Origin: Chlorobiaceae bacterium
GTDB taxonomy: Bacteria; Bacteroidota; Chlorobiia; Chlorobiales; Chlorobiaceae
DNA length: 35,465 nt
Assembly (NCBI GenBank): GCA_013334435.1
Contig: JAAXXP010000005.1
Coordinates: 1 to 35,465 of the forward strand
Direction: 5' to 3'
In this document: piece by piece, positions 3,144 to 22,811 of the stretch
Position numbering within the stretch: the first letter of the stretch is position 1
Layout of the letters: the number at the start of each line of letters is the position of its first letter
Program-made: the position numbers and the translations under genes
The notes under the pieces: model-generated
Told to the model about the DNA's origin: nothing
The model's input: only the letters and a program-made list of their open reading frames with translations
The model's database searches: none

Positions 3144-3998
3144 ATGAATGATTTTCTCTTCTGGTGGCAGCACCTGCCTTCACAGATGAATCCGGTGATT
3201 ATCTCATTGGGAGGATTTGCCGTTCGGTGGTATGGCATGATGTACATCATCGCCTTTGCGATAGTCTGGCTGCTTACGCTTTATCGCCTGAAAACCGAAA
3301 AAACCGGCTTCGACCGCCAGTTCGTCGGAGACGCCCTTACCTGGGCCATGGTCGGCGTCGTGCTCGGGGGCCGGCTGGGCTATATCTTTTTCTACGGGCT
3401 GGACAGCTTTTTTGCCGATCCGCTCGGAACGCTCATTCCGTGGTCTTTTGCATCGGGCGGCTGCAGCTTTGCCGGCATAACGGGAATGTCCTATCACGGC
3501 GGGGTGATCGGCGTGGTGCTTGCCATGTGGTTTTTTTCCCGAACGCAGAAGAAAGGATTTCTGGAAATTTTCGACCTCTTCCTTCCCGCCCTTCCCCTCG
3601 GCTACACCTTCGGACGGCTCGGCAATTTCATCAACGGCGAGCTCTACGGAAGGGTAACCGATGCGGCTGTCGGCATGTACTTTCCCATGGCTCCCACGGT
3701 GGAGCTGCGTCACCCCTCCCAGCTTTACGAAGCGTTTTTCGAGGGAATCGTGATGTTTGTCATTCTCTGGGCCCTGCGCAAAAAGTCTCCGTATCCGGGG
3801 TTTCTTTCGGGACTCTACCTTCTGGGGTACGGATTCGTCAGGTTTTTCATAGAGTTTTTCCGTGAGCCGGATGCCCATCTTGGCTTTGTTTTCCTGGACT
3901 TTTCCATGGGCCAGGTGCTCTGCTTCGTCATGATGATCGCCGGAGTTGCCGTCATGGTGCAGGCAAGAGGAGCCAAGGATTCACCGGGAAGAGAGTAA
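3144..3998 (+). CDS. lgt: Prolipoprotein diacylglyceryl transferase
   Basis: Lgt is an inner-membrane enzyme that moves diacylglyceryl from phosphatidylglycerol to the lipobox cysteine of prolipoproteins. The 284 residues contain several hydrophobic segments and the family motifs: SYHGG with the conserved His118, and the signature GRLGNFINGELYGR (residues 157-170), followed by HPSQLYEAFFEG. Length is normal. The start is the ATG at 3144; no strong ribosome site is visible. The gene is divergent from aclB and its last 18 bases overlap the 3' end of the oppositely oriented fetB-like gene. At least two predicted lipoproteins occur in this window (the PstS-like protein and possibly the Ctp protease). 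Confidence 0.95.
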   Translation: MNDFLFWWQHLPSQMNPVIISLGGFAVRWYGMMYIIAFAIVWLLTLYRLKTEKTGFDRQFVGDALTWAMVGVVLGGRLGYIFFYGLDSFFADPLGTLIPWSFASGGCSFAGITGMSYHGGVIGVVLAMWFFSRTQKKGFLEIFDLFLPALPLGYTFGRLGNFINGELYGRVTDAAVGMYFPMAPTVELRHPSQLYEAFFEGIVMFVILWALRKKSPYPGFLSGLYLLGYGFVRFFIEFFREPDAHLGFVFLDFSMGQVLCFVMMIAGVAVMVQARGAKDSPGRE

Positions 3999-9670: not shown

Positions 9671-10144
9671 ATGGCGCATATGAGAATCAGAGAGGCCGTA
9701 ACCGCCGATATCGGACGATGCGCCGAACTGCTCGGCATGCTGTTTGCGGCGGAACGGGAATTCACTCCGGACCCGGTTGCCCAGAGACGGGGCCTGGAAC
9801 TCGTTCTCGACAGCCCGCAGACCGGCCGGGTGTTTGTCTGTGAAACCGGCGGCAGGATAGCCGGCATGGTGATGCTGCTCTTTACCGTCAGCACCTTTCT
9901 CGGCAAAAAAGTCGCCCTGCTCGAAGACATGATTGTCGATCCGGCGTTCCGCGCACAGGGAATCGGCGCCCGACTTATCGCCCACTCCGTGGAGTTTGCC
10001 CGGCATGAGGGGCTGGGCAGAATAACCCTGCTGACGGATCACGACAATACCGCCGCCCGGAATTTCTATCACCGGGCTGGCTTTACGCCATCATCGATGG
10101 TGGTGCTCAGAAAACAGCTTGACAATCAGGGAGAAACCCCGTGA
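9671..10144 (+). CDS. GNAT family N-acetyltransferase
   Basis: An acetyl-CoA-dependent acyltransferase of unknown substrate, 157 residues from the ATG at 9671 (MAHMRIREAVTADI). The acetyl-CoA-binding motif A appears as LEDMIVDPAFRAQGIGARLI, and the C-terminal part has the usual N-x-x-A-x-x-F-Y-x-x-x-G-F pattern (NTAARNFYHRAGF). An upstream in-frame ATG at 9623 would add 16 residues that do not look conserved, and ATG 9680 is also possible; no start has a convincing ribosome site. The stop codon overlaps the GTG of the rubredoxin gene, so the two are probably co-translated. Confidence 0.82.
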   Translation: MAHMRIREAVTADIGRCAELLGMLFAAEREFTPDPVAQRRGLELVLDSPQTGRVFVCETGGRIAGMVMLLFTVSTFLGKKVALLEDMIVDPAFRAQGIGARLIAHSVEFARHEGLGRITLLTDHDNTAARNFYHRAGFTPSSMVVLRKQLDNQGETP

Positions 10145-10311
10145 ACGGGTGCTGGCAGTGCCGTGAGTGCGGCTATCTTTACGATCCTGCCGACGGCGAT
10201 CCCGAAAGCCGGATCCGTCCGGCAACAGCGTTCGAACAGCTTCCCGGCAACTGGTGCTGCCCGGTATGCAGCGAGCGGAAAAGCGGCTTCGATCCTATGG
10301 TTGCCGCCTGA
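10141..10311 (+). CDS. Rubredoxin
   Basis: A 56-residue iron-sulfur electron carrier that binds one Fe by four cysteines. The first ligand pair is in WQCRECGYLYDP (Cys7, Cys10) and the second in NWCCPVCSERK (Cys40, Cys43). Between them lie the conserved DGDPE, the aromatic core residues and TAFEQLP. The start is GTG, overlapping the GNAT stop, with AGGGAG seven bases upstream, which supports it strongly. Two extra cysteines (Cys4 and Cys39) are not part of the usual ligand set. The gene is easily missed because it is short and begins with GTG. It ends only four bases before the stop of the convergent LolC-like permease gene. Green sulfur bacteria commonly carry rubredoxins for anaerobic redox and oxygen or peroxide reduction; the partner here is unknown. 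Confidence 0.92.
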   Translation: MNGCWQCRECGYLYDPADGDPESRIRPATAFEQLPGNWCCPVCSERKSGFDPMVAA

Positions 10312-10315
10312 ACGG

Positions 10316-11569
10316 TTAGTTGGCCTTGCTGTCGAGCGAATGGTTTACGGCGATAGCCGCAGCCTTGCGGGCGGGATAGAGGCTCACCAGAAAACTCAGG
10401 GCGACGGCGGTCAGGCCTACGGCAAAAAAGTCGGAGGCATGCATGCTTACGGGATATGACTGGATGACGAATGCGCTTTGCGATGGCAGGCGGACGAGAC
10501 CGTAGGCCTCCTGAAGCCGGCAGACGATCCATGCCAGCAGCGATCCGGCGGCGGTTCCGGCTATGCCGGTCATGGTGCCCTGGATCAGAAAAATTCCCAT
10601 GAACTGAGGCCGTTCCAGCCCGAGACACCGGAGGTAGAAAAGCTCTTTCTGCTTGTCGATTGCCGTCATGGCAAGGGAGCCGGTAAGGCTGAGCGCGGCG
10701 ACAAGCACCACCAGCATCAGGACGCTGAAGCTTGCCCATTTCTCCAGCTCCATGACCGCGAAGATATCCCCGTACTTTTTTTCCAGAGGCCTCAGGGTGC
10801 AGCTCCGCCCGAGAGGCGTGCCGGCAATCCTCGCTTCGAGACGTTTCAGGAGTTTGCGGCCCGAGACGCCCTTTTCGGCCCTGATATCGATGCCGCTGTA
10901 CCGGTCGCCGCCAAGAAGCAGCACTTTGCGGGCAAATTCGTTGGGCGCGAGCACATAGCGGTCGTCGAAGAGTTTCTGCAGGGAGAATGTCGAGGAAACC
11001 TTCGTTTCCGGGATTCTCAGAGCGGCCAGCATGTAGGGCTCCGAAAGCAGTTCAAGGCCGACGCTGATCAGTTCGGGGCTGAACAGCCTGACCTCGCTGA
11101 AGGGCGAAAGCTCCAGGCGTCCGGCAAGCAGATCGCCGGCGGAAACCGTCTCTCCGCTGAAAAAGGGCTTGATGGCCGAGGTCCTTCGCATCAGTTCCCG
11201 CTGACCCTCCCCGCTGAGTCCTCTGATCATGACCAGTTCGCTTTTTCCGCCGCCCGACGACATGATTGCCTCCCCTTCGGCAAACGGTTCGGCAGCCGCC
11301 ACCCCTTCGACCGATGCCAGGGCCTGAAGCAGGCTGTCGCTGACGCTGATGCCGCCGTCGCTGCGGGAAACCAGCTGAACCTCGCCTTCAATGGTGGTGA
11401 ACATGTCGTATGCGAGCTTCTGAAAGCCGTTCAGGACGCTCATCACGATAAGGAGGGTGCTCACTCCCACGATGATCCCGGCAAGGCTGATTGCAGAGAT
11501 CACATTGATAATCCTGAAGCGTTTGCGGGCAAAGCTGAACCTGCGGGCAATCCATAATGCTGTTTTCAT
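10316..11569 (-). CDS. LolC/LolE-type (FtsX family) ABC permease, second copy
   Basis: A 417-residue permease of the lipoprotein-release type: one N-terminal membrane helix (about residues 20-48), a large periplasmic domain, then three helices in the C-terminal FtsX domain (about 278-303, 328-352, 380-405). In other bacteria LolC and LolE with the ATPase LolD move lipoproteins from the inner membrane toward the outer membrane. The start [13 protein letters not shown] is typical of the family. It follows its paralogue by 15 bases and is the last gene of a four-gene minus-strand operon. No LolD-type ATPase is encoded in this window, so the ATPase must come from elsewhere if the complex is active. 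Confidence 0.85.
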
Positions 11570-11584
11570 ACGGGAAAAATTAGA

Positions 11585-12856
11585 TCAGGTAGTCAGCGCC
11601 GTTCCGGGATTGAGCGATGATGCGATTCTTGCCGGTATGAAGGCGAAAAGCATGGTCAGAAAAATGACGGCGAGGCCCACCATAAGATAGTCGAGTGGAT
11701 CGATCATCAGCGGCACATACTTGATGAAATAACTCTTCTCGGGAAGGGTTATCAGATGAAATCGCTGTTCGAAAAGGGTCAGCGAGAGGGCGACTGCGGC
11801 TCCTGCGGCCACTCCTGCCAGCGAGATGAGGATGGACTGGCCTAAAAAAATCAGCCTGATTTTCCTGGGCTCGAGCCCCAGGGCGATCAGCATGCCGATT
11901 TCGCGCGTTTTTTCGATAACCAGCACCAGGAGCGTCGAGATGATATTGAATACCGCAACGACGGTAATGGTTATGATGAGCAAGGGAGAGATGTTTTTCT
12001 GGAGCTTGAGCCACTCGAAAAGGTTCGCATAGCGCTCGAACACCGTATAGGTGTAGAACGGAAATCCGAGTTGCCGGGCCAGCTCTCCCGAAATCGTGCC
12101 GATCTTCGACAGATCCCCCACCCGCACATCGTAACCGCTGATCATGTCGGGATGAAAGCGCTTCTGAACCTCGTCGAGCGAGGCGATAACCACCACATCG
12201 TCGAACCCGTCCTGCAGCCCGGTGTCGTAAATGCCGCTGATCCTTGCGGCTTCAAGATCGAGGGAGGCGAAAAGGTCCACGATATCCCGGTTTCCGCTGC
12301 TGATGCCATCTTTCACCTCACGGTCCAGTCCGGCAAGCAGAACTTTCTGGCCGCTTTTCACGCCGAGCTGTTCGGCAAGCGTTTTTCCGATATAGAGGGA
12401 GAGTATCCCGTTTTCCGTCGGCTGCCGACGTCCCTCACCGCCGATCAGATACTGTTTCAGGAACGCCTTGCGCTCAAGGGCGGTTATCCCCTTCAGCACG
12501 ACGGGGCGTACCGCCGCCGACCCTTTTCTCTCTCCGGGACGGCTGCGGAGAATGAAGCTTTTTTCAAGAAAGGGCGAGGCCGAGACGACACCCGGAAAAC
12601 CCGCGATGAGGCCCTGTTCGTATCGGCTTGCGGGAAAGTACTGTTCGTCTCCCTGACGCACCTGTATGTGCGAGGTAAAGCTGATCAGCTTGCCCTCGAC
12701 GCTTCCGGCAAACCCCTTGACGATGGAAAGCGTCAGAATCAGAGCCGCCGTGCCTACGGCGATGCCGATGACCGATGCCAGCACGATAAACGCCGGCCTT
12801 GATCCGGTGCGCTCCCGGAAGGCGAAGCGCCGGGCTATATAGAGAACCGGTTTCAT
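11585..12856 (-). CDS. LolC/LolE-type (FtsX family) ABC permease, first copy
   Basis: A 423-residue paralogue of the next gene with the same one-plus-three helix plan: N-terminal helix around residues 21-48, periplasmic domain to about 265, then the FtsX helices. The start MKPVLYIARRFAF closely parallels [13 protein letters not shown] of its neighbour, which fits an ancient tandem duplication giving a LolC/LolE pair. Its ATG overlaps the stop of the diguanylate cyclase gene (ATGA), so translation is probably coupled. Which of the two corresponds to LolC and which to LolE cannot be decided by eye. A MacB-like exporter role is a weaker alternative. Confidence 0.85.
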   Translation of the reverse strand: MKPVLYIARRFAFRERTGSRPAFIVLASVIGIAVGTAALILTLSIVKGFAGSVEGKLISFTSHIQVRQGDEQYFPASRYEQGLIAGFPGVVSASPFLEKSFILRSRPGERKGSAAVRPVVLKGITALERKAFLKQYLIGGEGRRQPTENGILSLYIGKTLAEQLGVKSGQKVLLAGLDREVKDGISSGNRDIVDLFASLDLEAARISGIYDTGLQDGFDDVVVIASLDEVQKRFHPDMISGYDVRVGDLSKIGTISGELARQLGFPFYTYTVFERYANLFEWLKLQKNISPLLIITITVVAVFNIISTLLVLVIEKTREIGMLIALGLEPRKIRLIFLGQSILISLAGVAAGAAVALSLTLFEQRFHLITLPEKSYFIKYVPLMIDPLDYLMVGLAVIFLTMLFAFIPARIASSLNPGTALTT

Positions 12857-14121
12857 TTGCCTTCATCTCCGCTCTTGATTGCCGAAAATGCGCATACGTT
12901 GTTGCGGCCGGCGGATTTGGCATGATAGAGCGCCCGGTCGGCATTGTTGACCAGGGTATACCAGTCCTGTGCATCGTCAGGAAAGGTTGCAATGCCGATA
13001 CTTACCGTCAGGCGTCCACCCGGCTGTTTTTTTTCATGCGCAACCGGTTCGGCGCTGATGATCATGCGCAGACGGTCGGAAATCTGCATGGAGGTGTCGA
13101 TTCCCGTTCGGGGAAAGAGCACGGCAAACTCCTCCCCTCCGAACCTCGAGGGCATGTCGGATGTGCGGCAGGTGGTGCCGATAATGCCGGCAAGCTGCTC
13201 CAGCACCTGGTCTCCGGCCACATGTCCGTTCTCGTCGTTATAGTGCTTGAAGTGATCGATATCGATCATGGCTATCGATACCTTGTCGTCGAGCCGTTTC
13301 GAACGTTCGATTTCCATGATGAGATGTTCCTTGAAGTGCCGGTAGTTGTACAGATTCGTTTTCTCGTCGCGAATGTAGAGCTCGTCGAGTTTCTTGTTTT
13401 TCGCTTCGATATCCCGGCAGAAGTCCACCATGGTGTCGGTGATGCGGGAGATCTCCCAGGAGTGCGGCGTCAGGGCCAGGTCGTTGCGGATATCATCGGC
13501 CGTATCATGAATGCTTTCCGGAATGTTTTTGTTGATGAGGCTGACTTTGCCTGAAAGCCGCGAGAGCGGTATCAGCGTCATGGTATAGATTATGTAGAAC
13601 CGTCGCCATGCGGCGATGACGAATCCCGCAACGAGAAGCGAAAGCGTCATGACAAATACGTTGCTGACCCATACACTGGCATCGAGTGCTCCCTGCAGCT
13701 CCTTGTCGGCCTTCCGGGTGCTGTTGTCGAGCGCGAGCAGGAAAACTTCACGGTTGGCCGCCGAAAAGTAGCCGCGATCGTTCCGCTTCCGGATCAGTAC
13801 GCCCGGAATATCGGGTTTGCCCGCTATGGCGGCACTCTCCAGTACCTCATCGAGCATGAACTGCATGACCTTGATCGTCGCGTCGTCATCCCTGCTTGAA
13901 AGTTCGCGGTTTTTTTCGAAACCGGCCACTTTTCCCTTCAGTTCGACCAGGTTGCGGTAGAGCGCCTGCTTGTGCTGCATATCCTCGACAAGCATGTTCC
14001 GGTAGAGCATGAATCCCCCGATCACGAGCCCGAGGAGCAGGAGAAAGAGCGCTGCGCCGAGAGTGATGCGTTTCAGGTGAACCGGCTGATTCAGGGGTAT
14101 CTCGCTGCTCATGCTTGTCAT
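12853..14121 (-). CDS. Membrane-bound diguanylate cyclase (GGDEF)
   Basis: This 422-residue protein makes cyclic di-GMP from two GTP. It has a membrane helix near residues 19-40, an unassigned periplasmic region of about 110 residues, a second helix at 152-171, then a HAMP-like linker and a GGDEF domain. The active site is GGEEF (328-332), an accepted active variant, with metal-binding aspartates in IDIDHF (285-290). An inhibitory I-site RxxD (Arg319-Asp322) lies five residues before GGEEF, so product inhibition is expected. Both ends overlap neighbouring genes by four bases: the PstS-like lipoprotein gene upstream and a LolC/E permease gene downstream. The context suggests the periplasmic domain senses something handled by the lipoprotein, but this is inference. 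Confidence 0.9.
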   Translation of the reverse strand: MTSMSSEIPLNQPVHLKRITLGAALFLLLLGLVIGGFMLYRNMLVEDMQHKQALYRNLVELKGKVAGFEKNRELSSRDDDATIKVMQFMLDEVLESAAIAGKPDIPGVLIRKRNDRGYFSAANREVFLLALDNSTRKADKELQGALDASVWVSNVFVMTLSLLVAGFVIAAWRRFYIIYTMTLIPLSRLSGKVSLINKNIPESIHDTADDIRNDLALTPHSWEISRITDTMVDFCRDIEAKNKKLDELYIRDEKTNLYNYRHFKEHLIMEIERSKRLDDKVSIAMIDIDHFKHYNDENGHVAGDQVLEQLAGIIGTTCRTSDMPSRFGGEEFAVLFPRTGIDTSMQISDRLRMIISAEPVAHEKKQPGGRLTVSIGIATFPDDAQDWYTLVNNADRALYHAKSAGRNNVCAFSAIKSGDEGK

Positions 14122-14993
14122 TTCAGGATTATGGTTCTCGGCAACTGACGCAGCGGCGCAAGATAGTTCCGCTCAAAGCCTTTCTGTCCCTCCCTGGAGA
14201 GCCAGGACCCGAGACCTGCGGCAAGAGGATTGCCGGGAATATAGATGTAATACACAAGGGTGGCAAGCGGGTACTGCCCGTCATAAATATGCTGTTCGGA
14301 AGGCATTACGGCTCCTGAGCCCTCTTTTTCGGATGCAACCGGAAGCATGCGGATCCGGCTCCGTGTCGTTTCGGAAAGGGAGAGGGTGTTCCAGGCCGAA
14401 AGATAGAGCAGGCCGGCGGCCCTGGGGTCGACGGCTGTTTTTTCGACAAGCAGCGAGTCGGAATCGGTCTGCATGGCATGAAGCGCTGCGTCTCCCGTAT
14501 CGAGCAGATGGCGCAGGGTTGCAAGCAGGCGGTAGTCGTTGCGTGCAGTCCATACAACGAACCCCGTCTTCGAGGGGTTCCTGCCGGAAAGCGCTGCTCC
14601 GAGCGCTCCGGTGGAGACCGAATCGAGCGGACTCAGGCGGCTGACAATGCAGATGAGCGCGTCACGGGCCACAGGCTCCTTCCGGCCGCCGAGCTTCGGA
14701 CGCGCAAGCAGTGAGTCCTCTTCCGGCAGGAGCGAGCCGTTGACGAGCACGGCATCGGATTCCCTTTTAAGCAGTGTGAGCAGGGTTTTTCCCGTCAGCT
14801 CCGGCGTGACGGCTACGGACGCTTCCGGATAGTGCGCGGAAAATATTTCCGTCTGCGAAACCGCGGCTTCGGCAAGGGATGCGTCGACGGCAAGGCGAAG
14901 CGTTCCTTCCGTGGCCGACGTGCGCGCATCCCCGCCGGCGCCGCACCCCGACATCGACAGGACGAGCAGGGCCGCCGCCAGTGATGAGCGCAT
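14118..14993 (-). CDS. PstS-like periplasmic substrate-binding lipoprotein
   Basis: A 291-residue extracytoplasmic solute-binding protein of the phosphate-binding (PstS-like) type. From the ATG at 14993 a hydrophobic stretch ends in SMSGC, a lipobox with Cys17, so it is probably a lipid-anchored product of the Lgt pathway. The body has the alternating pattern of a PstS-like fold and ends with YPLATLVYYIYIPGN, close to the typical PstS C-terminus. An in-frame ATG at 15050 would add 19 residues with basic RKR and is possible. No pstA, pstB or pstC genes are nearby. It is instead followed, with a four-base overlap, by a diguanylate cyclase, so a sensory rather than transport role is worth considering. 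The ligand is unknown. Confidence 0.75.
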   Translation of the reverse strand: MRSSLAAALLVLSMSGCGAGGDARTSATEGTLRLAVDASLAEAAVSQTEIFSAHYPEASVAVTPELTGKTLLTLLKRESDAVLVNGSLLPEEDSLLARPKLGGRKEPVARDALICIVSRLSPLDSVSTGALGAALSGRNPSKTGFVVWTARNDYRLLATLRHLLDTGDAALHAMQTDSDSLLVEKTAVDPRAAGLLYLSAWNTLSLSETTRSRIRMLPVASEKEGSGAVMPSEQHIYDGQYPLATLVYYIYIPGNPLAAGLGSWLSREGQKGFERNYLAPLRQLPRTIILK

Positions 14994-15150
14994 GAAAGCT
15001 GCGCCTGCGGACCGTTTACGGTCTCCGCTGTTCTTATTACCTGTAATCATAAAGCATATGATAGCAATACCCCGCGAGAATTGCAGATGAAAAAGCTTTT
15101 CCAAAAAAGAGAGATCCGGTTACGGAAAGGGAAAAAAGCCCGCAATGCTC

Positions 15151-15178
15151 TTGATAATTCCCTTGAAAAGTGTAATAT
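15151..15178 (+). promoter_or_regulatory. Candidate arg operon promoter
   Basis: TTGATA (15151-15156) and TAATAT (15173-15178) are spaced by 16 bases and fit a sigma-70 type promoter (5/6 and 4/6 matches). Transcription would start inside or next to the ARG boxes, the arrangement expected for repression. A second possible promoter lies downstream: TTACTT at 15252-15257 and TAGAAT at 15274-15279, also with 16-base spacing. The sequence does not decide between them. Confidence 0.4.
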
Positions 15179-15189
15179 ATTCACTTTAT

Positions 15190-15222
15190 TGAATATATAT
15201 TCAGGTACTGAATGAATATTCA
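15190..15222. promoter_or_regulatory. argO: Tandem ARG boxes (ArgR operator)
   Basis: Two adjacent palindromes match the ARG box core TGAAT-N4-ATTCA: TGAATATATATTCA at 15190-15203 (perfect, with an all-A/T centre) and TGAATGAATATTCA at 15209-15222 (both arms perfect, one G in the centre). Their centres are 19 bases apart, about two helical turns, close to the spacing of paired ARG boxes in other bacteria, where one ArgR hexamer binds both. A further ATTCA half-site lies at 15179-15183. The pair sits about 110 bases upstream of argC, and argR is the fifth gene of the operon, so feedback repression by arginine is the natural reading. Confidence 0.85.
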
Positions 15223-15329
15223 TGGCCCGTATCCTGTTTTTTCTCTGTTAATTACTTTTAAATATCCTTAAAATAGAATATCATCGCAGGTTTCAGGCGG
15301 TATGTTCATCCAGCACGCAGATAAAGGTT

Positions 15330-16361
15330 ATGACACATTCAAAGGCGCCCTCCGGGGCACTCCATTCGGTTGCGGTTATCGGGGCCTCCGGCTATTCGGG
15401 CGCAGAGCTTGTGCGCATCATTCTCCGCCACCCCGCCCTGCGCCTCGACTCGCTCTACGCTTTCTCGCAGGCCGGGAAGCGATTTTCGGATCTCTATCCT
15501 TCCGTCTCCTGCGACATGGAGCTCCTGCGCTATGCAGGCGAATGCGACGCCGATATCTGCTTTCTTGCCCTTCCTCACGGCGAAGCCCTGAAGCTTGTAC
15601 CCGAACTGATCGGCAGGGGAAAGATGGTTATCGATCTTTCCGGCGATTTCAGGCTGAAAAATACGGATGAACATGAACGCTACTACCTGCAGCCGAAGAC
15701 GGCAGGCTCCTCGATGACCTATGCCATGCCCGAACTGTTCAGGAACGAAATTGCGCAGGCAAAGGCCGTGAGCAATCCCGGCTGCTATGCGACAAGCATC
15801 ATTCTCGGACTCGCTCCGTTCTTTCATGGCAATGATCGTCCCTTCAGGGTGAGTTCGGTCAACTGCACGGCGATCTCGGGCATTTCGGGGGCCGGACGCA
15901 CCAGCAAGACCGAACTTTCGTTCTCGGAAATGAGCGAAAACATGCGAGCCTACAAGGTCGGGTGCCACCAGCACACGCCGGAAATCATGCAGGCGCTCGG
16001 CTCTTCGGTTTCCGAACCCGCGTTTGATTTCACCTTTACCCCGGTTATCGGGCCGTTTACCAGAGGAATCTATTCCGTGCTGAACGTTTCGCTCGATGGC
16101 GAAGCTTCCGGCAGCGCCATCGACGATCTTTACAGGAATTTTTATGCCGGCGCACCGTTTGTGAGATTGCGCGACACCATGACCGAAGTGCGCCATGTCG
16201 CCCTGACGAACTTCTGCGACATCCATATCGCCAGCGGGCCTGAAAACGGCCGGCTGGTGATTGTCAGCGCCATCGACAATCTGCTCAAGGGTGCGGCCGG
16301 TCAGGCCGTGCAGAACATGAACATCATGCTCGGCCTTGAAGAGACGCTCGGACTGTCCTGA
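15330..16361 (+). CDS. argC: N-acetyl-gamma-glutamyl-phosphate reductase
   Basis: ArgC reduces N-acetylglutamyl phosphate to the semialdehyde with NADPH, the third step of arginine synthesis. The 343 residues begin with a Rossmann nucleotide-binding motif [14 protein letters not shown] (residues 16-29). The catalytic cysteine is Cys152 in SNPGCYATS, and the conserved His lies in [10 protein letters not shown]. The length is standard for the long-form enzyme. The ATG at 15330 has a short AAGG just before it. It is the first gene of argCJBFRGH, and the only large upstream gap carries the ARG boxes. Confidence 0.96.
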
Positions 16362-16389
16362 TTACCAGAAAAAAACATACCGTACTGCC

Positions 16390-17676
16390 GTGACGCCTAA
16401 CCTGCACAAAGCACTCGATACCATAAGGGAACTTGCCGCAGCCACCCGGTGGCCCGAATCCGTAACTCCCCTGCTCCCCTCAGGCCTCGACGAGGCGGGA
16501 TTCTGGCCCGACGGATTTCGTTCCGCCGGGGTTTCGGCCGCCATCAGATACGACAAGAGGGATCTCATGATCCTGCTTGCCGACAATCCGGCATCGGCAG
16601 CCGCTCTGTTCACGACCAATCTCTGCTCCGCCGCACCGGTCATGCACTCCAGAGCCAGTCTGCTGGAAAGCCGCGGCTGCATGAGGGCGATTATCTGCAA
16701 CAGCGGCAACGCCAACGCGGCAACCGGCCCGGAAGGTCTCGCCGATGCCGCGGCTATGGCCGTGGCGACCGCCGCCCTGTTCGGCCTGAAACCCGAAGAG
16801 GTGCTGGTGGCTTCCACCGGAGTGATCGGCCAGCCCCTGCCGATGCCGAAAATTCTCGGAGCCATGCCGGAGCTTCCTGCGGCTCTTGCAAGGAACTCCA
16901 GCCTCGATGCCGCCGAAGCCATCATGACCACCGATACCTTTCCGAAGTTTTTTTCGCTCGACGTCCGCCTTTCCGGCGGCACGGCCAGGGTGAGCGGCAT
17001 CGCCAAGGGTTCCGGCATGATCTGCCCGGATATGGCCACCATGCTGGCATTTCTCTGCACCGATGCAGCAATCGAACCGGCGCTCCTGCAGCGGATGCTC
17101 GAGAACGCCAACCGGAACAGCTTCAACGCCATAACCGTCGATGGCGATACCAGCACCAACGATATGGTGTCGATTCTTGCCGGAGGAAAAGGACCCTCCA
17201 TCGCGGAAAAAAGTCGGGATGCTGAAATTTTCGCCGGGGCTCTCGAACTGCTCATGACCTTTCTTGCCAGGCTTATCGTCATTGACGGCGAAGGCGCCAC
17301 GAAACTTGTTGAAATTCGCGTAGAGGGAGCCCTTTCGGACCGGGACGCCGCGATTGCGGCTAAAACCATAGCGAACTCGCCGCTCGTCAAGACCGCCCTG
17401 CATGGCCAGGACGCCAACTGGGGCAGGATCATCGCCGCCGCCGGCCGATCCGGGGCTTTTTTCAGGCAGGAGGATGTCGCGATTCTTTTTGACGGCCTCT
17501 CCATTCTCGAACCGGGCCTGAAGGCTGTTTTTTCCGAAGAGGATGCCGCGGAGATTCTGAAAAAACCCTCCTATACCATGACCGTGCGTCTCGGAAACGG
17601 TCCGGGAAAGGCCGCCGTCTGGACCTGCGACCTGAGCAAGGAGTACATCGAAATCAACGGCAGCTACCGAAGCTGA
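16390..17676 (+). CDS. argJ: Ornithine acetyltransferase / N-acetylglutamate synthase
   Basis: ArgJ transfers the acetyl group from N-acetylornithine to glutamate, which gives ornithine and recycles the acetyl group; some family members can also use acetyl-CoA. The protein is a self-cleaving Ntn-type precursor. The conserved cleavage region [14 protein letters not shown] is present, with Thr217 as the expected nucleophile that starts the beta chain. I chose GTG at 16390 ([10 protein letters not shown]), giving 428 residues. A TTG at 16336 would overlap argC and add 18 residues of unlikely sequence, and the first in-frame ATG is too far inside. No argE deacetylase or separate argA appears in the window, consistent with the cyclic pathway. 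Confidence 0.94.
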
Positions 17677-17711
17677 TTTTTTTACCTGTTAACGCAACCG
17701 TCATCAAAAGC

Positions 17712-18623
17712 ATGAATCCTCTGTGCAGCGAATTCGAATCCGCAAGAAAGGCTCCGGAAGCGGCTATCGGCCAGGTGCTCATCGAGGCACTGCCCTATAT
17801 CCGCAAGTTCGAGGGCAAGACATTCGTCATCAAGTACGGCGGCTCCGCCATGAAAGATGAGGTGCTCAAGAACAGTTTTGCCCAGAACGTCACCCTTCTG
17901 AGAAAGGTAGGCATCAATGTCGTCCTGGTGCATGGCGGAGGAGACGCCATCACCCGTACCGCCAGGAAACTGGGGCTTGCATCGCAGTTTGTCCACGGCA
18001 AGCGCGTCACCGACAGGGAGATGATCGATGTCGTGCAGATGACCCTTGCCGGCAAGGTGAACCAGGATATCGTGCGTCTCCTGAGCGAACACGGCGGCAA
18101 GGCCGTAGGGGTTACCGGTCTCGATGCCGATACCATCCAGGCCCTTCCCGGCCCGAACGCCGAAACGCTGGGGCTGGTGGGCGACGTCGAGGCGATCAAC
18201 ACCGGCTATATCGATCTGCTCTGCCATGCCGGGCTCATTCCGGTTATTGCTCCCATCGGATACGATCACAACGGCAACATCTACAATATCAACGCCGATG
18301 ATGCGGCAAGCAGCATCGCCATCGCGCTCAAGGCGGAAAAACTCATCTATGTCAGCGACGTCGAGGGAATACAGGTCGGGGAGCGGATACTGAAAACCAT
18401 CTGCAAGTCGGAAGCCGCAGATTTTATCGAACAGGGCATCATTTCCGGCGGCATGATCCCGAAAGTGCTTTCGGCTTTCAAGACCCTCGACGGCGGCGTC
18501 GGAAAAATCCATCTGATCGACGGTAAATTCACGCACTCCCTGCTGCTTGAGATCTTTACCCATGAGGGGGTAGGAACCCAGTTCATCGCCGAACAGGATA
18601 ACGATCAACCAGAAAACAGCTAA
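17712..18623 (+). CDS. argB: Acetylglutamate kinase
   Basis: ArgB phosphorylates N-acetylglutamate with ATP, the second and usually controlling step of the pathway. The 303 residues show the amino-acid-kinase fold motifs: [10 protein letters not shown] near residue 40 with the catalytic Lys, [12 protein letters not shown] for substrate, and IYVSDVEG followed by ISGGMIPKV near the C-terminus. The N-terminal extension before the first strand (about 35 residues) resembles the helix that lets hexameric, arginine-inhibited kinases assemble, so allosteric inhibition by arginine is plausible. It follows argJ by 35 bases and precedes argF by 10. Confidence 0.96.
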
Positions 18624-18633
18624 TACAACCGTT

Positions 18634-19650
18634 ATGGAACAGGCTAAGAAACACGCTAATGCCGGGAAACGTGATTTCCTCGGGTTTTCCCGGCTCGATA
18701 TGGCCAAAGTCATCGAACTTTTCGACTACTCCCTTCATATCAAGCGGAAAAGGGAGGAATTCACGGCGAACAATACCTTTCAGCCACTTAAAAACAAGAC
18801 GGTTGTCCTGATTTTCAGCAAACATTCGCTGAGGACAAGGGTTTCCTTCGAGCTCGGCATTCACGAACTCGGAGGTTATGCCATAATCCTCGAAGGAAAG
18901 GCGATCGGAGTCGGTTCCAGGGAGTCCGTAGAGGACGTTGGCCGGCTGCTTTCCCGCTACAACGACGCTATCGTAGCCCGGCTGCATGAGCACAGCATCA
19001 TCGAGGGTCTTGCGGAGAACTCCTCCATTCCCGTCATCAATGCCCTGACCGACCTGTCGCACCCCTGTCAGGTGCTTGCCGACGTCTTTACCCTCTACGA
19101 AAGGGGTTTGTGGCACGAAGGGATCAAGGTTGTCTTTGTCGGAGACGGCAACAATGTCGCCAACTCGTGGATCGAGCTTGCCGGCATACTCCCCTTCCAT
19201 TTCGTGCTGGCCTGCCCTGAAGGGTACACCCCCGACGCAGGGATCCTTGAAGCCGCGCGGGCAGCCGGCATCAGCCGTATCGAGGTCACCCACGATCCTG
19301 AAGCCGCCGCCCTGGATGCCGACGTGCTCTATACCGACGTCTGGACGAGCATGGGCCAGGAGGATGAGCATGAGAGCCGGCTGAAAATTTTCGCCCCTTT
19401 TCAGGTCAACAGCCGCCTGCTCTCTCTGGCCAAACCCTCCGCCGTGGTCATGCACTGCATGCCGGCTCACCGCGGCCAGGAAATTACCGCAGAGGTGATG
19501 GACGGACCGCAGTCGCTGATATTCGACGAAGCCGAAAACCGGCTCCATGTGCAGAAAGCCCTTCTGGTGAAGCTGCTCAATCACGAGGAGTACCGGAAAT
19601 TCCATCTTACGCACCGTCTGCTCAATGCGGCCAAAAACATCAAGGCCTGA
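18634..19650 (+). CDS. argF: Ornithine carbamoyltransferase
   Basis: ArgF joins ornithine and carbamoyl phosphate to citrulline (338 residues). The carbamoyl-phosphate loop reads FSKHSLRTR (residues 61-69), where most enzymes have STRTR. HPCQ (143-146), the ornithine loop DVWTSMG and the HCMPAHRG cysteine motif are all present. The SLRTR variant is reminiscent of N-acyl-ornithine carbamoyltransferases, but the intact DVWTSMG loop and the presence of argJ, which supplies free ornithine, favour a standard ornithine enzyme. It starts 10 bases after argB and argR follows 7 bases later. Confidence 0.93.
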   Translation: MEQAKKHANAGKRDFLGFSRLDMAKVIELFDYSLHIKRKREEFTANNTFQPLKNKTVVLIFSKHSLRTRVSFELGIHELGGYAIILEGKAIGVGSRESVEDVGRLLSRYNDAIVARLHEHSIIEGLAENSSIPVINALTDLSHPCQVLADVFTLYERGLWHEGIKVVFVGDGNNVANSWIELAGILPFHFVLACPEGYTPDAGILEAARAAGISRIEVTHDPEAAALDADVLYTDVWTSMGQEDEHESRLKIFAPFQVNSRLLSLAKPSAVVMHCMPAHRGQEITAEVMDGPQSLIFDEAENRLHVQKALLVKLLNHEEYRKFHLTHRLLNAAKNIKA

Positions 19651-19657
19651 ACCGGCG

Positions 19658-20104
19658 ATGAACAAACAGGTACGGCAACTGAAAATCCGGGAGACGCTGC
19701 GCCTTCATGAGGTCGGCAACCAGCACGATCTTATCCGTCTGCTCGAGGAGGCCGGCATCAAGGTGGCGCAGGCGACACTGTCGCGGGACTGTACGGAAAT
19801 CGGCGTTGTACGCTCCAGGGGCGCCGGCGGCTACCGGCTGGTTCTGCCCGAGGAAAATCCCGGCAACATCATCAAGGGGCTGGTCGGGGTCGAGGTGCTC
19901 TCCATCGAATCGAATGAAACCGTGGTCATCATCAAAACCCTTCCCGGAAGGGGGCATGGGGTGGCTTCGTTTTTCGACCAGATGAAAAATTCTCCCATTC
20001 TCGGCACCGTTGCCGGTGACGACACCGTTCTGGTGATTCCCCGATCGGTATCGCAGATTTCCCAGGTGATATCCTATATTCAAGAAAATCTTTCCAAAAA
20101 CTGA
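19658..20104 (+). CDS. argR: Arginine repressor
   Basis: ArgR is the arginine-responsive DNA-binding hexamer that shuts off arginine genes. The 148 residues (from ATG 19658, MNKQVRQLK) contain an N-terminal winged helix including HEVGNQHDLIRLLEEAGIK and ATLSRD. The C-terminal oligomerisation domain has GTVAGDDTVLVIPRS, whose GDD aspartates bind arginine in the family. An upstream in-frame frame extension overlaps argF and is not needed. It sits inside the operon it is expected to control, with ARG boxes at 15190-15222, which implies autoregulation. Confidence 0.96.
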   Translation: MNKQVRQLKIRETLRLHEVGNQHDLIRLLEEAGIKVAQATLSRDCTEIGVVRSRGAGGYRLVLPEENPGNIIKGLVGVEVLSIESNETVVIIKTLPGRGHGVASFFDQMKNSPILGTVAGDDTVLVIPRSVSQISQVISYIQENLSKN

Positions 20105-20122
20105 TAATCAATCACGCAACGC

Positions 20123-21325
20123 ATGAGTAAGGAAAAAATCGCACTTGCCTATTCCGGTGGTCTGGACACCTCCGTGATGATCAAATGGCTTAAAGACAAA
20201 TACGACGCCGAAATCGTTGCCGTCACCGGCAACCTCGGCCAGCCCAAAGAGATCGAGAATCTCGAATCGAAAGCCCTCACGACCGGCGCTTCGGCGTTCA
20301 GGTTCGTCGATCTCCGCAAGACCTTCGTCGAGGAGTATATCTGGAGAGCGCTGAAAGCCGGCGCGCTTTATGAGGATGTCTATCCTCTGGCCACCGCTCT
20401 CGGCAGGCCGCTGCTCGCAAAGGCGCTTGTCGATGTGGCGCTTGAGGAGAACTGCACCATGCTTGCGCACGGCTGCACCGGAAAAGGCAACGACCAGGTA
20501 CGCTTCGAGGTCACCTTCGCCTCTCTGGCTCCCCATCTGAAGATGCTCGCTCCCCTGCGCGAATGGGAGTTCACCTCGCGTGAAGCGGAAATCGCCTATG
20601 CCCTCGAACACAACATACCGGTATCGGCCACAAAGAAGAGCCCGTACTCGATCGACGAGAACATCTGGGGCATCAGCATCGAATGCGGCGTGCTTGAAGA
20701 TCCCATGGTAACCCCTCCGGAGGATGCCTACCAGATCACCACCTCACCGGAAAATGCGCCCGATACCCCGGCATCAGTTGAGATCGAATTCGTCCAGGGT
20801 GTGCCGGTTGCGCTTGACGGCCAGCGCATGAGCGGGCTCGACATGATCCGGAAACTCAACGAAACCGGCGCAGCCAACGGTATCGGACGTCTCGACATGA
20901 TCGAAAACAGGGTTGTAGGCATCAAGTCGAGGGAGATCTACGAAGCTCCCGCGGCAACCATCCTGCACTTCGCGCACAGGGAACTCGAACGACTGACGCT
21001 TGAAAAAACCGTCTTCCAGTACAAGAAGAACATCAGCCAGGACTACGCCAACATCATCTACAACGGCACCTGGTTCTCCCCGATGCGCAAGGCGCTCGAT
21101 GCGTTCGTTGATGAAACCCAGAAGCCGGTGACCGGCGTGGTGCGCCTGAAGCTCTACAAGGGCAGCCTTTCGCTGCTTGGCAGGAATTCGCCGAACTCGC
21201 TCTACAACGAGGAGCTGGCAACCTATACCGAAGCCGATACCTTCAACCACAAGGCGGCTGCAGGGTTCATTCACCTGTACGGCCTCGGCATGAAAACCTT
21301 CAGCCAGGTCAATCCGGGCCTCTGA
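20123..21325 (+). CDS. argG: Argininosuccinate synthase
   Basis: ArgG condenses citrulline and aspartate with ATP to argininosuccinate. The 400 residues begin with the ATP pyrophosphatase P-loop AYSGGLDTS (residues 8-16), followed by the conserved [14 protein letters not shown] segment. The length and both halves are normal. The ATG at 20123 follows argR by 18 bases. A hairpin lies in the 103-base gap to argH. Confidence 0.96.
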
Positions 21326-21342
21326 GGCCGGAAAACCGCGTC

Positions 21343-21376
21343 TGCGCTCCCCTCAGGCAATTCGTCGGGGAGCGCA
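21343..21376 (+). terminator. Hairpin between argG and argH
   Basis: A perfect 10-bp stem, TGCGCTCCCC (21343-21352) with GGGGAGCGCA (21367-21376), and a 14-base loop follow argG by 17 bases. A short T-run (CTCTTTTTCCC) begins only about ten bases later, so it is a weak terminator at best. It may lower argH expression or protect the upstream message from decay. Confidence 0.5.
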
Positions 21377-21428
21377 CCTGACGGCTCTTTTTCCCATTCG
21401 AACGATCTTGCAAAAACACGACTTTTTC

Positions 21429-22811
21429 ATGAGCAACAAGAAAGAACTTCTCTGGCAGAGCCGCTTCTCCCTGCCGTTCGACCGTGATGCCCTGCGTTTC
21501 TCCTCATCGGTGCATGTCGACAAGGCTCTCTTCAGGGAGGATATCCAGGGGTCCACCGCCCACGTCACCATGCTGGCCGAAGAGGGAATCATCACTCCGG
21601 AGGAGGCCCGACAGATCATAGCCGGACTCAGGGAGATCGAAACGGAACTTGAAACCGAAGCGCTCGTGCCTCACTGGGAGGATGAGGATATCCACACGGT
21701 GATCGAAAACCGGCTGAAAGAAAAAATCGGAGCTGCTGCAGGAAAGATTCACTCGGGAAGAAGCCGGAACGATCAGGTGGCAACCGATACCCGTCTTTAC
21801 CTGCGCCGGCAGATCCGCACGCTTGACGCGGCGCTGCATGGACTGCAGAAAATCCTCGTTTCAAAGGCCGACGCCTGCAAGGAGACCATCATTTTCGGGT
21901 ACACCCATCTGCAGCGAGCCCAGCCGATCTCCGCAGGGCACTACTATCTGGCCTATTTCAACATGTTCCGCCGCGACCGCGACCGGCTGGCCGATCTCTT
22001 CAGGCGGGTGAACATCTCCCCTCTCGGCGCAGCCGCGTTTGCCGGAAGCACGCTTCCGCTCAATACCGAAAGAAGCGCCGTACTGCTCGACTTCGACGGA
22101 GTTTTCTCCAACAGTATCGATGCCGTAAGCGACAGGGATATCGTGATCGAGTTCATTTCAGCCTGTTCGATGATCATGATGCACCTTTCGCGCTTTGCCG
22201 AAGACCTGATTCTCTGGAGCTCCTACGAGTTCGGCTACCTTGAAATCAGCGACGCCTTCGCTACCGGTTCATCGCTCATGCCGCAGAAAAAGAACGCCGA
22301 CATCGCGGAACTGGTAAGGGGAAAAACCGGCAGGGTCTATGGCAGTCTGGTCTCCATGCTCACCATCATGAAAGGACTCCCCCTCTCCTACAACCGCGAC
22401 ATGCAGGAGGACAAACCGCCGCTTTTCGACAGCGCCGAAACGACCATCGAGTGTGTCTCGATTTTCGGAAAGCTGCTCGAGCACACAACCCTCAGGGAGG
22501 AGCGGCTTGCAAAACTGACCGCCGAGGACCTCAGCCTCGCCACGGAAATCGCCGAGTATCTGGTCCGCAAGCAGATGCCTTTCAGGGATGCCCACCGCGT
22601 TACCGGCAGGATCGTCTCACACAGCATCGCTTCAGGCAAAACCCTTCCGAACATAACGCTGGAAGAGTACAGAACCTTTTCCACGCTTTTCGAAAACGAC
22701 ATCTACCTTTCGCTCAAACCCGAAGCGAGCATCAGGGCCAAAAAGAGTCGCGGCAGCTGCTCCTTCAGTTCCGTGGAAGCGCAGCTTGAAGAGGCCAGAA
22801 AGCTGCTCTGA
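21429..22811 (+). CDS. argH: Argininosuccinate lyase
   Basis: ArgH splits argininosuccinate to arginine and fumarate, the last step of the pathway. The 460 residues carry the fumarase/aspartase superfamily signature [19 protein letters not shown], the [19 protein letters not shown] segment and the [12 protein letters not shown]-type block (here [13 protein letters not shown]). I chose the ATG at 21429 ([14 protein letters not shown]); a TTG seven codons upstream is less likely. It ends the arg operon and is followed at once by a strong hairpin. Confidence 0.95.

Follow-up and report, generated by a model that had tools for sequence, protein, structure and literature searches.

The present study concerns a four-gene operon in a 35,465-nucleotide stretch of DNA from a Chlorobiaceae bacterium (contig JAAXXP010000005.1, positions 1-35,465 of the forward strand, hereafter the window). 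Open reading frame (ORF) calls and the sequence place the genes in a row on the minus strand. They encode a PstS-fold lipoprotein of the PBP_like_2 type (the periplasmic binding protein, PBP; 14118-14993, 291 amino acids from an ATG at 14993), a membrane diguanylate cyclase (DGC; 12853-14121, 422 amino acids), and two LolC/LolE-like permeases, permease A (11585-12856, 423 amino acids) and permease B (10316-11569, 417 amino acids). ATGA overlaps join PBP to DGC (14118-14121) and DGC to permease A (12853-12856), as an earlier sequence-only reading had described; its ambiguously worded 15 bases at the last junction are correct as a figure but form an intergenic gap (11570-11584) and not an overlap.

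The four-gene order is conserved across Chlorobiaceae, beyond chance. The arrangement PBP-DGC-permease A-permease B, divergent from arg genes, was found through the family, with counts made over 74 Chlorobiaceae loci with permease A and 12 genomes of other families of the order; the window genome is that of a Chlorobium, with named relatives that included Chlorobium ferrooxidans DSM 13031 and 'Candidatus Chlorobium antarcticum'. A DGC gene was linked upstream of permease A at 60 of the 74 loci, with a 4-bp overlap in 39 of these 60. PBP was present at 71 loci, two of the three gaps being contig ends and the third a 66%-complete draft (G063) with unrelated sequence at that place. With that exception PBP stood directly upstream of DGC in Chlorobiaceae loci for which sequence was available, mostly at a distance of -4 to +17 bp, with larger negative values reflecting over-extended ORF starts. 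Outside the family, DGC, permease A and permease B were together or within approximately 1.3 kb in 11 of the 12 genomes, the exception (G031) having no DGC-permease block, and PBP, often as a tandem pair, was upstream of DGC in 8 of the 12. Both conditions that the sequence-only reading had named as refuting its proposal were checked, and neither held: more than one strain has the order, and separation of the lipoprotein gene from the cyclase gene is not the rule. Two diverged versions of the complete operon, together with arg neighbors, were present in one assembly with 7% contamination (G008; L040, L054), possibly from two mixed species.

Chlorobaculum/Prosthecochloris-like genomes, which form the second genus of the family, can have 0.2-5 kb separating DGC and permease A, and permease B was not near in 12 of the 74 loci, having moved away in some lineages. 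One such insert, of about 5 kb in G052 (L136:2848-7905 (-)), appears by eye to encode a branched-chain amino acid or urea-type ATP-binding cassette (ABC) transporter. Operons often gather related genes whose products do not interact, and these inserts and displacements could reflect nothing beyond co-regulation, i.e. a transcription unit for envelope house-keeping with products that make no direct contact. We consider this explanation unlikely, given that across the genus Chlorobium both the PBP-DGC and the DGC-permease A junctions are held at overlap distance.

The PBP matched PBP_like_2 (PF12849; 84 bits, 1.9e-23) in Pfam, and its AlphaFold2 model (predicted local distance difference test score, pLDDT, 90) had PstS-family proteins as best Protein Data Bank (PDB) matches in Foldseek, with TM-scores by query of 0.55-0.68; a profile search reached PstS chains 4pqj/4omb at 1e-19. 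A lipobox, LSMSG|C with Cys17, lies at 14943-14960 (-), and the cysteine was kept in 35 of 35 aligned homologues, followed mostly by T or S and in a single case by Asp. Besides its fold (compare PDB 4pqj, 4omb, 4gd5), the protein shares with PstS the lipoprotein anchor and a C-terminal YPL...GQ region, but differs in standing ahead of a cyclase, in having no pst genes beside it, and in lacking the SGT/GSGT phosphate motif, which was not present in the PBP or its aligned homologues; in the alignment the SGT position reads (N/D)D(Y/F)R in Chlorobium PBPs and is NDGQR-like in outgroups. A PstC/PstA pair is encoded elsewhere in the window genome, at G000:C68. The sequence-only reading was right about the lipobox and the missing pst neighbors, but its suggestion of phosphate as ligand is not supported, and phosphate sensing was rejected because the motif is absent and Pst is encoded elsewhere. 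With SGT replaced and a genuine PstC/PstA pair elsewhere, the PBP is an orphan of the binding-protein fold, and any ligand that it has would be other than phosphate. The PstS fold and PstS-family best matches could also point to an ordinary transport protein, serving phosphate or another oxyanion for an ABC permease elsewhere, in which case its position would be incidental; the loss of SGT in the aligned homologues, the separate PstC/PstA pair, and the fixed place beside DGC and permease A make this extremely improbable. A remote homologue of the PBP directly adjoins TonB and ExbD genes in G038 (L068:9347-12713 (-)). This Bacteroidota-type PstS-like protein likewise has no Pst transporter genes beside it but has other partners, with no cyclase or Lol permease nearby. 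In G026 (L055:4135-10105 (+)) genes for MlaE, an ABC ATPase and MlaD precede the PBP gene, which is about 20 kb from the DGC-permease block.

The layout of the cyclase was also as first read, with a periplasmic part between two helices followed by an active-type output domain. In order, sequence and the AlphaFold2 model give transmembrane helix 1 (residues ~18-40), a periplasmic helical region of ~107 residues (residues ~41-149, 13675-14001 (-), boundaries approximate), transmembrane helix 2 (~150-172), connecting helices, and the GGDEF domain (PF00990, 142 bits; 12898-13371 (-)), with a helical arrangement of moderate confidence (mean pLDDT 82, predicted TM-score 0.48). The GGEEF active site is at 13126-13140 (-) and the I-site, RTSD, an RxxD five residues before GGDEF, at 13156-13167 (-); guanine-binding ND..GH..GD is retained. 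The motifs RxxD-x5-GG[DE]EF and ND..GH..GD were intact in 68 of 70 DGC orthologues, which are all 68 complete copies, the remaining two being one frameshifted copy and one contig-end fragment. Because these motifs are intact, the DGC is predicted to make cyclic di-GMP (c-di-GMP), with normal product inhibition at the I-site.

Both permeases contain FtsX and MacB_PCD domains (Pfam) and are covered nearly full length (4-409/411) by TIGR02212 lolCE, at 1e-55 for A and 9e-56 for B. Each scored 189 bits, under the curated cut-off of 362, which was reached by none of 41 Chlorobiota-side genomes and by only 2 of 14 controls. Permease A aligned to LolF, LolE and LolC chains at 1e-26 to 1e-21 and permease B to the LolE chain 7arh_E at 4e-25; permease A was single copy in nearly all Chlorobiaceae (82 of 86 genomes). 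Likeness to LolCDE and LolF therefore extends over nearly the full length of both proteins, but the operon differs in the sub-threshold LolCE scores, in the PBP and DGC genes in front, and in the lack of a LolD gene within it. LolD-like ATPases occur elsewhere in the genome (the best, G000:C19, at 274 bits, below cut-off). From these best matches, permeases A and B are probably the main lipoprotein-release permeases of the cell, working with a LolD ATPase encoded elsewhere. An anti-phage defence role was considered and rejected, as the permeases matched only weakly, and to the LolE part of CARF-LolE models.

Networks of c-di-GMP usually contain many cyclases and hydrolases, masking the role of each one. 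The window genome (99.55% complete) encodes no GGDEF protein besides the operon DGC (genome-wide count 1), and the same holds for most of Chlorobiaceae: 54 of the 74 loci belong to genomes in which this DGC is the sole GGDEF, 6 to genomes with the operon DGC and other GGDEF proteins, 13 to genomes with only other GGDEF proteins, and 1 to a genome with none. Among the relatives, 25 Chlorobium genomes were searched with Pfam profiles: none had EAL, PilZ or an above-cut-off MshEN match, and 17, the window genome included, also had no HD-GYP (HD_5); the genomes were partly drafts, control searches were positive in known genomes, and receptor types were only partly sampled. All 17 genomes without any of the four domains carry the operon DGC. 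A search for c-di-GMP-I riboswitches returned nothing in 41 genomes, with the control search likewise giving no match. It could be that the GGDEF protein does not act via diffusible c-di-GMP at all but, for example, as a nucleotide-binding scaffold directly regulating the permeases, which would explain the absence of hydrolases and receptors in those 17 genomes and would suit the 4-bp coupling of DGC to permease A. This is very unlikely in our view, both because of the partial sampling of receptor types and because every complete copy has the catalytic, guanine-binding and I-site residues, for which a scaffold would have no need.

Other relatives showed variations on this pattern. In a single-contig Chlorobaculum-type genome (G056; L140:7777-9272 (-)) a frameshift breaks the sole GGDEF gene in two, and this strain may therefore make no c-di-GMP. 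Proteins with cyclic nucleotide monophosphate (cNMP)-binding domains occur in or near the block of two f2 genomes (L058:5421-6641 (-), L061:2398-3177 (-)). In G030 a cNMP-binding domain fused to a SpoIIE phosphatase lies between permeases A and B, and in G025 a cNMP-binding-domain protein is downstream of permease B; the proteins of G030 and G025 are candidate effectors of the cyclase messenger in these relatives.

Selection was uneven along the operon. The ratio of nonsynonymous to synonymous substitution rates (dN/dS) was lowest for the DGC in most Chlorobium pairs (0.06-0.08, highest 0.12), with the permeases at 0.07-0.21 and the PBP highest at 0.14-0.50; the DGC was less constrained in Chlorobaculum-type pairs (0.20-0.25). 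Its periplasmic part is nonetheless the fastest-evolving stretch of the operon. A fast PBP and a fast DGC periplasmic region, together with constraint on the DGC as a whole, are as expected of a sensor ahead of a conserved output.

These patterns lead us to propose, at roughly even confidence, that this envelope operon, conserved in green sulfur bacteria, encodes a PBP-gated DGC co-expressed with lipoprotein-release permeases. The lipoprotein, PstS-like in fold, anchored in the periplasm and no longer a transporter component, would dock on the helical periplasmic domain of the DGC and set its activity, by the logic of TorT-TorS, LuxP-LuxQ and NspS-MbaA. The DGC, with its I-site feedback, would be the only recognized c-di-GMP source of the cell in most of these bacteria, and translation-coupled expression would tie the sensor pair to lipoprotein export by the permease A and B pair and the distant LolD ATPase. 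Given that coupling, the likely signal would be a ligand or the state of the envelope or of lipoprotein sorting, sensed by the lipoprotein. Gating by the PBP agrees with the unvarying PBP-DGC junction, with rapid evolution of the periplasmic parts beside constraint on the catalytic one, and with the way in which binding proteins are known to act on membrane sensors. A broader proposal, that in most green sulfur bacteria a single cyclase, PBP-gated and expressed together with the lipoprotein-release permeases, reports lipoprotein or envelope status to an unrecognized kind of receptor and is switched off by an unrecognized hydrolase, is more doubtful.

Several observations weigh against PBP gating. 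In 14 Chlorobium operons without DGC the PBP is kept and adjoins permease A, with a gap of 2 bp in ten and also close in the other four (G047, with its permease gene at a contig end, was left out). The absence of DGC requires approximately three changes on the permease A tree, at least two of them on well-supported branches, and because the outgroups have DGC these operons represent two or three independent losses. Since the PBP abuts permease A after the DGC is lost, it is not there for the DGC alone; PBP dN/dS in these operons was 0.22-0.29, as compared with 0.14-0.50, with no sign of relaxed selection. In 4 of the 12 genomes of other families the PBP is apart from the DGC: G026, G031 and G033 carry it at another place, and in G029 it is 4 kb away, beyond genes of opposite orientation. 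Mirror-tree analysis detected little specific PBP-DGC co-variation, with a partial r of 0.20 for the periplasmic part versus 0.16 for GGDEF, and no c-di-GMP receptor was recognized by the PilZ and MshEN profiles in the 25 Chlorobium genomes. The idea, already in the sequence-only reading, that the lipoprotein senses through the cyclase is thus reasonable in view of the conserved adjacency, but the retained and separated PBPs speak against a dedicated pair, and the single observation behind its link to lipoprotein release is co-transcription. Other GGDEF genes were present in the genomes of 13 of the 14 DGC-less operons. A statistical association of DGC loss with the presence of such genes (Fisher p 3e-9 across genomes) was rejected, as with approximately three DGC changes and two or three independent pairs it cannot be significant after phylogeny is considered.

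In the main alternative the Lol-type permeases are the partners of the PBP, which would serve lipoprotein release as an accessory, as an acceptor or in quality control, the DGC being a separately sensing passenger in the same envelope operon. PBP-permease A adjacency outlasts every DGC loss, and the periplasmic parts of the two proteins co-vary with a partial r of 0.54 when permease B is controlled for, although controls were unequal between the mirror-tree comparisons. The universal lipobox cysteine, and the T or S that mostly follows it with one Asp, also favor this explanation. We know of no role of PstS-fold proteins in Lol sorting, however, and the separation of PBP from the permeases in G026, G031 and G033 and of permease B in the 12 loci noted above speak against it; we regard it as possible but improbable.

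Upstream of the operon, a divergent intergenic region (14994-15329) separates it from argC, an arrangement conserved in Chlorobiaceae. A consensus scan of this region found no minus-strand promoter, and Rfam gave no match in the window. The divergent neighbor, argCJBF-argR-argGH, spans 15330-22811 (+). Throughout Chlorobiaceae the arg genes and the PBP operon keep this arrangement, but in other families it is not constant, and the neighborhood is therefore probably not functional. Convergent with permease B is a small ORF (10141-10311 (+)) with the pattern CRECGYLYDP...CCPVC, a probable rubredoxin, and lgt, for prolipoprotein diacylglyceryl transferase, is at 3144-3998 (+), approximately 6 kb past permease B on the opposite strand.

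Chlorobiaceae as a rule possess one cyclase and no more, which in Chlorobium is under strong purifying selection, while the partner domains searched for are absent in most Chlorobium. This makes the signalling system uncommonly simple and accessible to experiment: deleting a single gene ought to abolish c-di-GMP altogether, and a new receptor or hydrolase should come to light in a pull-down. Through the operon, a connection of lipoprotein export with second-messenger signalling can also be tested in a model phototroph. Among open PubMed Central papers none was found that describes the operon, or a function of c-di-GMP in green sulfur bacteria, in keeping with the first impression that the combination is not a described system, and the main-text passages found of a 2005 census of C. 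tepidum signalling proteins do not mention the operon (PMC1183210). Binding proteins that act on membrane sensors have been described (PMC6321045), as has PBP-type input in c-di-GMP networks (PMC8846402), and a further paper describes NspS-MbaA as PBP-type input to a c-di-GMP enzyme (PMC8967002).

TorT-TorS, LuxP-LuxQ, XylFII-LytS and, for c-di-GMP, NspS-MbaA all have a separate PBP gene next to one for a membrane-bound signalling protein whose input domain is periplasmic, and conserved adjacency of this kind, which marks PBP-sensor pairs, was found here. The present operon differs in that the output is a plain GGDEF, usually the only one of the cell, the PBP is PstS-like, Lol-type permeases follow, and contact between the two proteins is putative. 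CdgH and RmcA also bring a PBP fold into c-di-GMP signalling, but with the PBP domain fused in one chain (SBP_bac_3 in RmcA), whereas here the proteins are separate and the PBP belongs to another family. Each component is of a known kind; new, to our knowledge, are the way in which they are combined, the putative partnership of a cyclase with a PstS-like protein, and the economy of a single cyclase.

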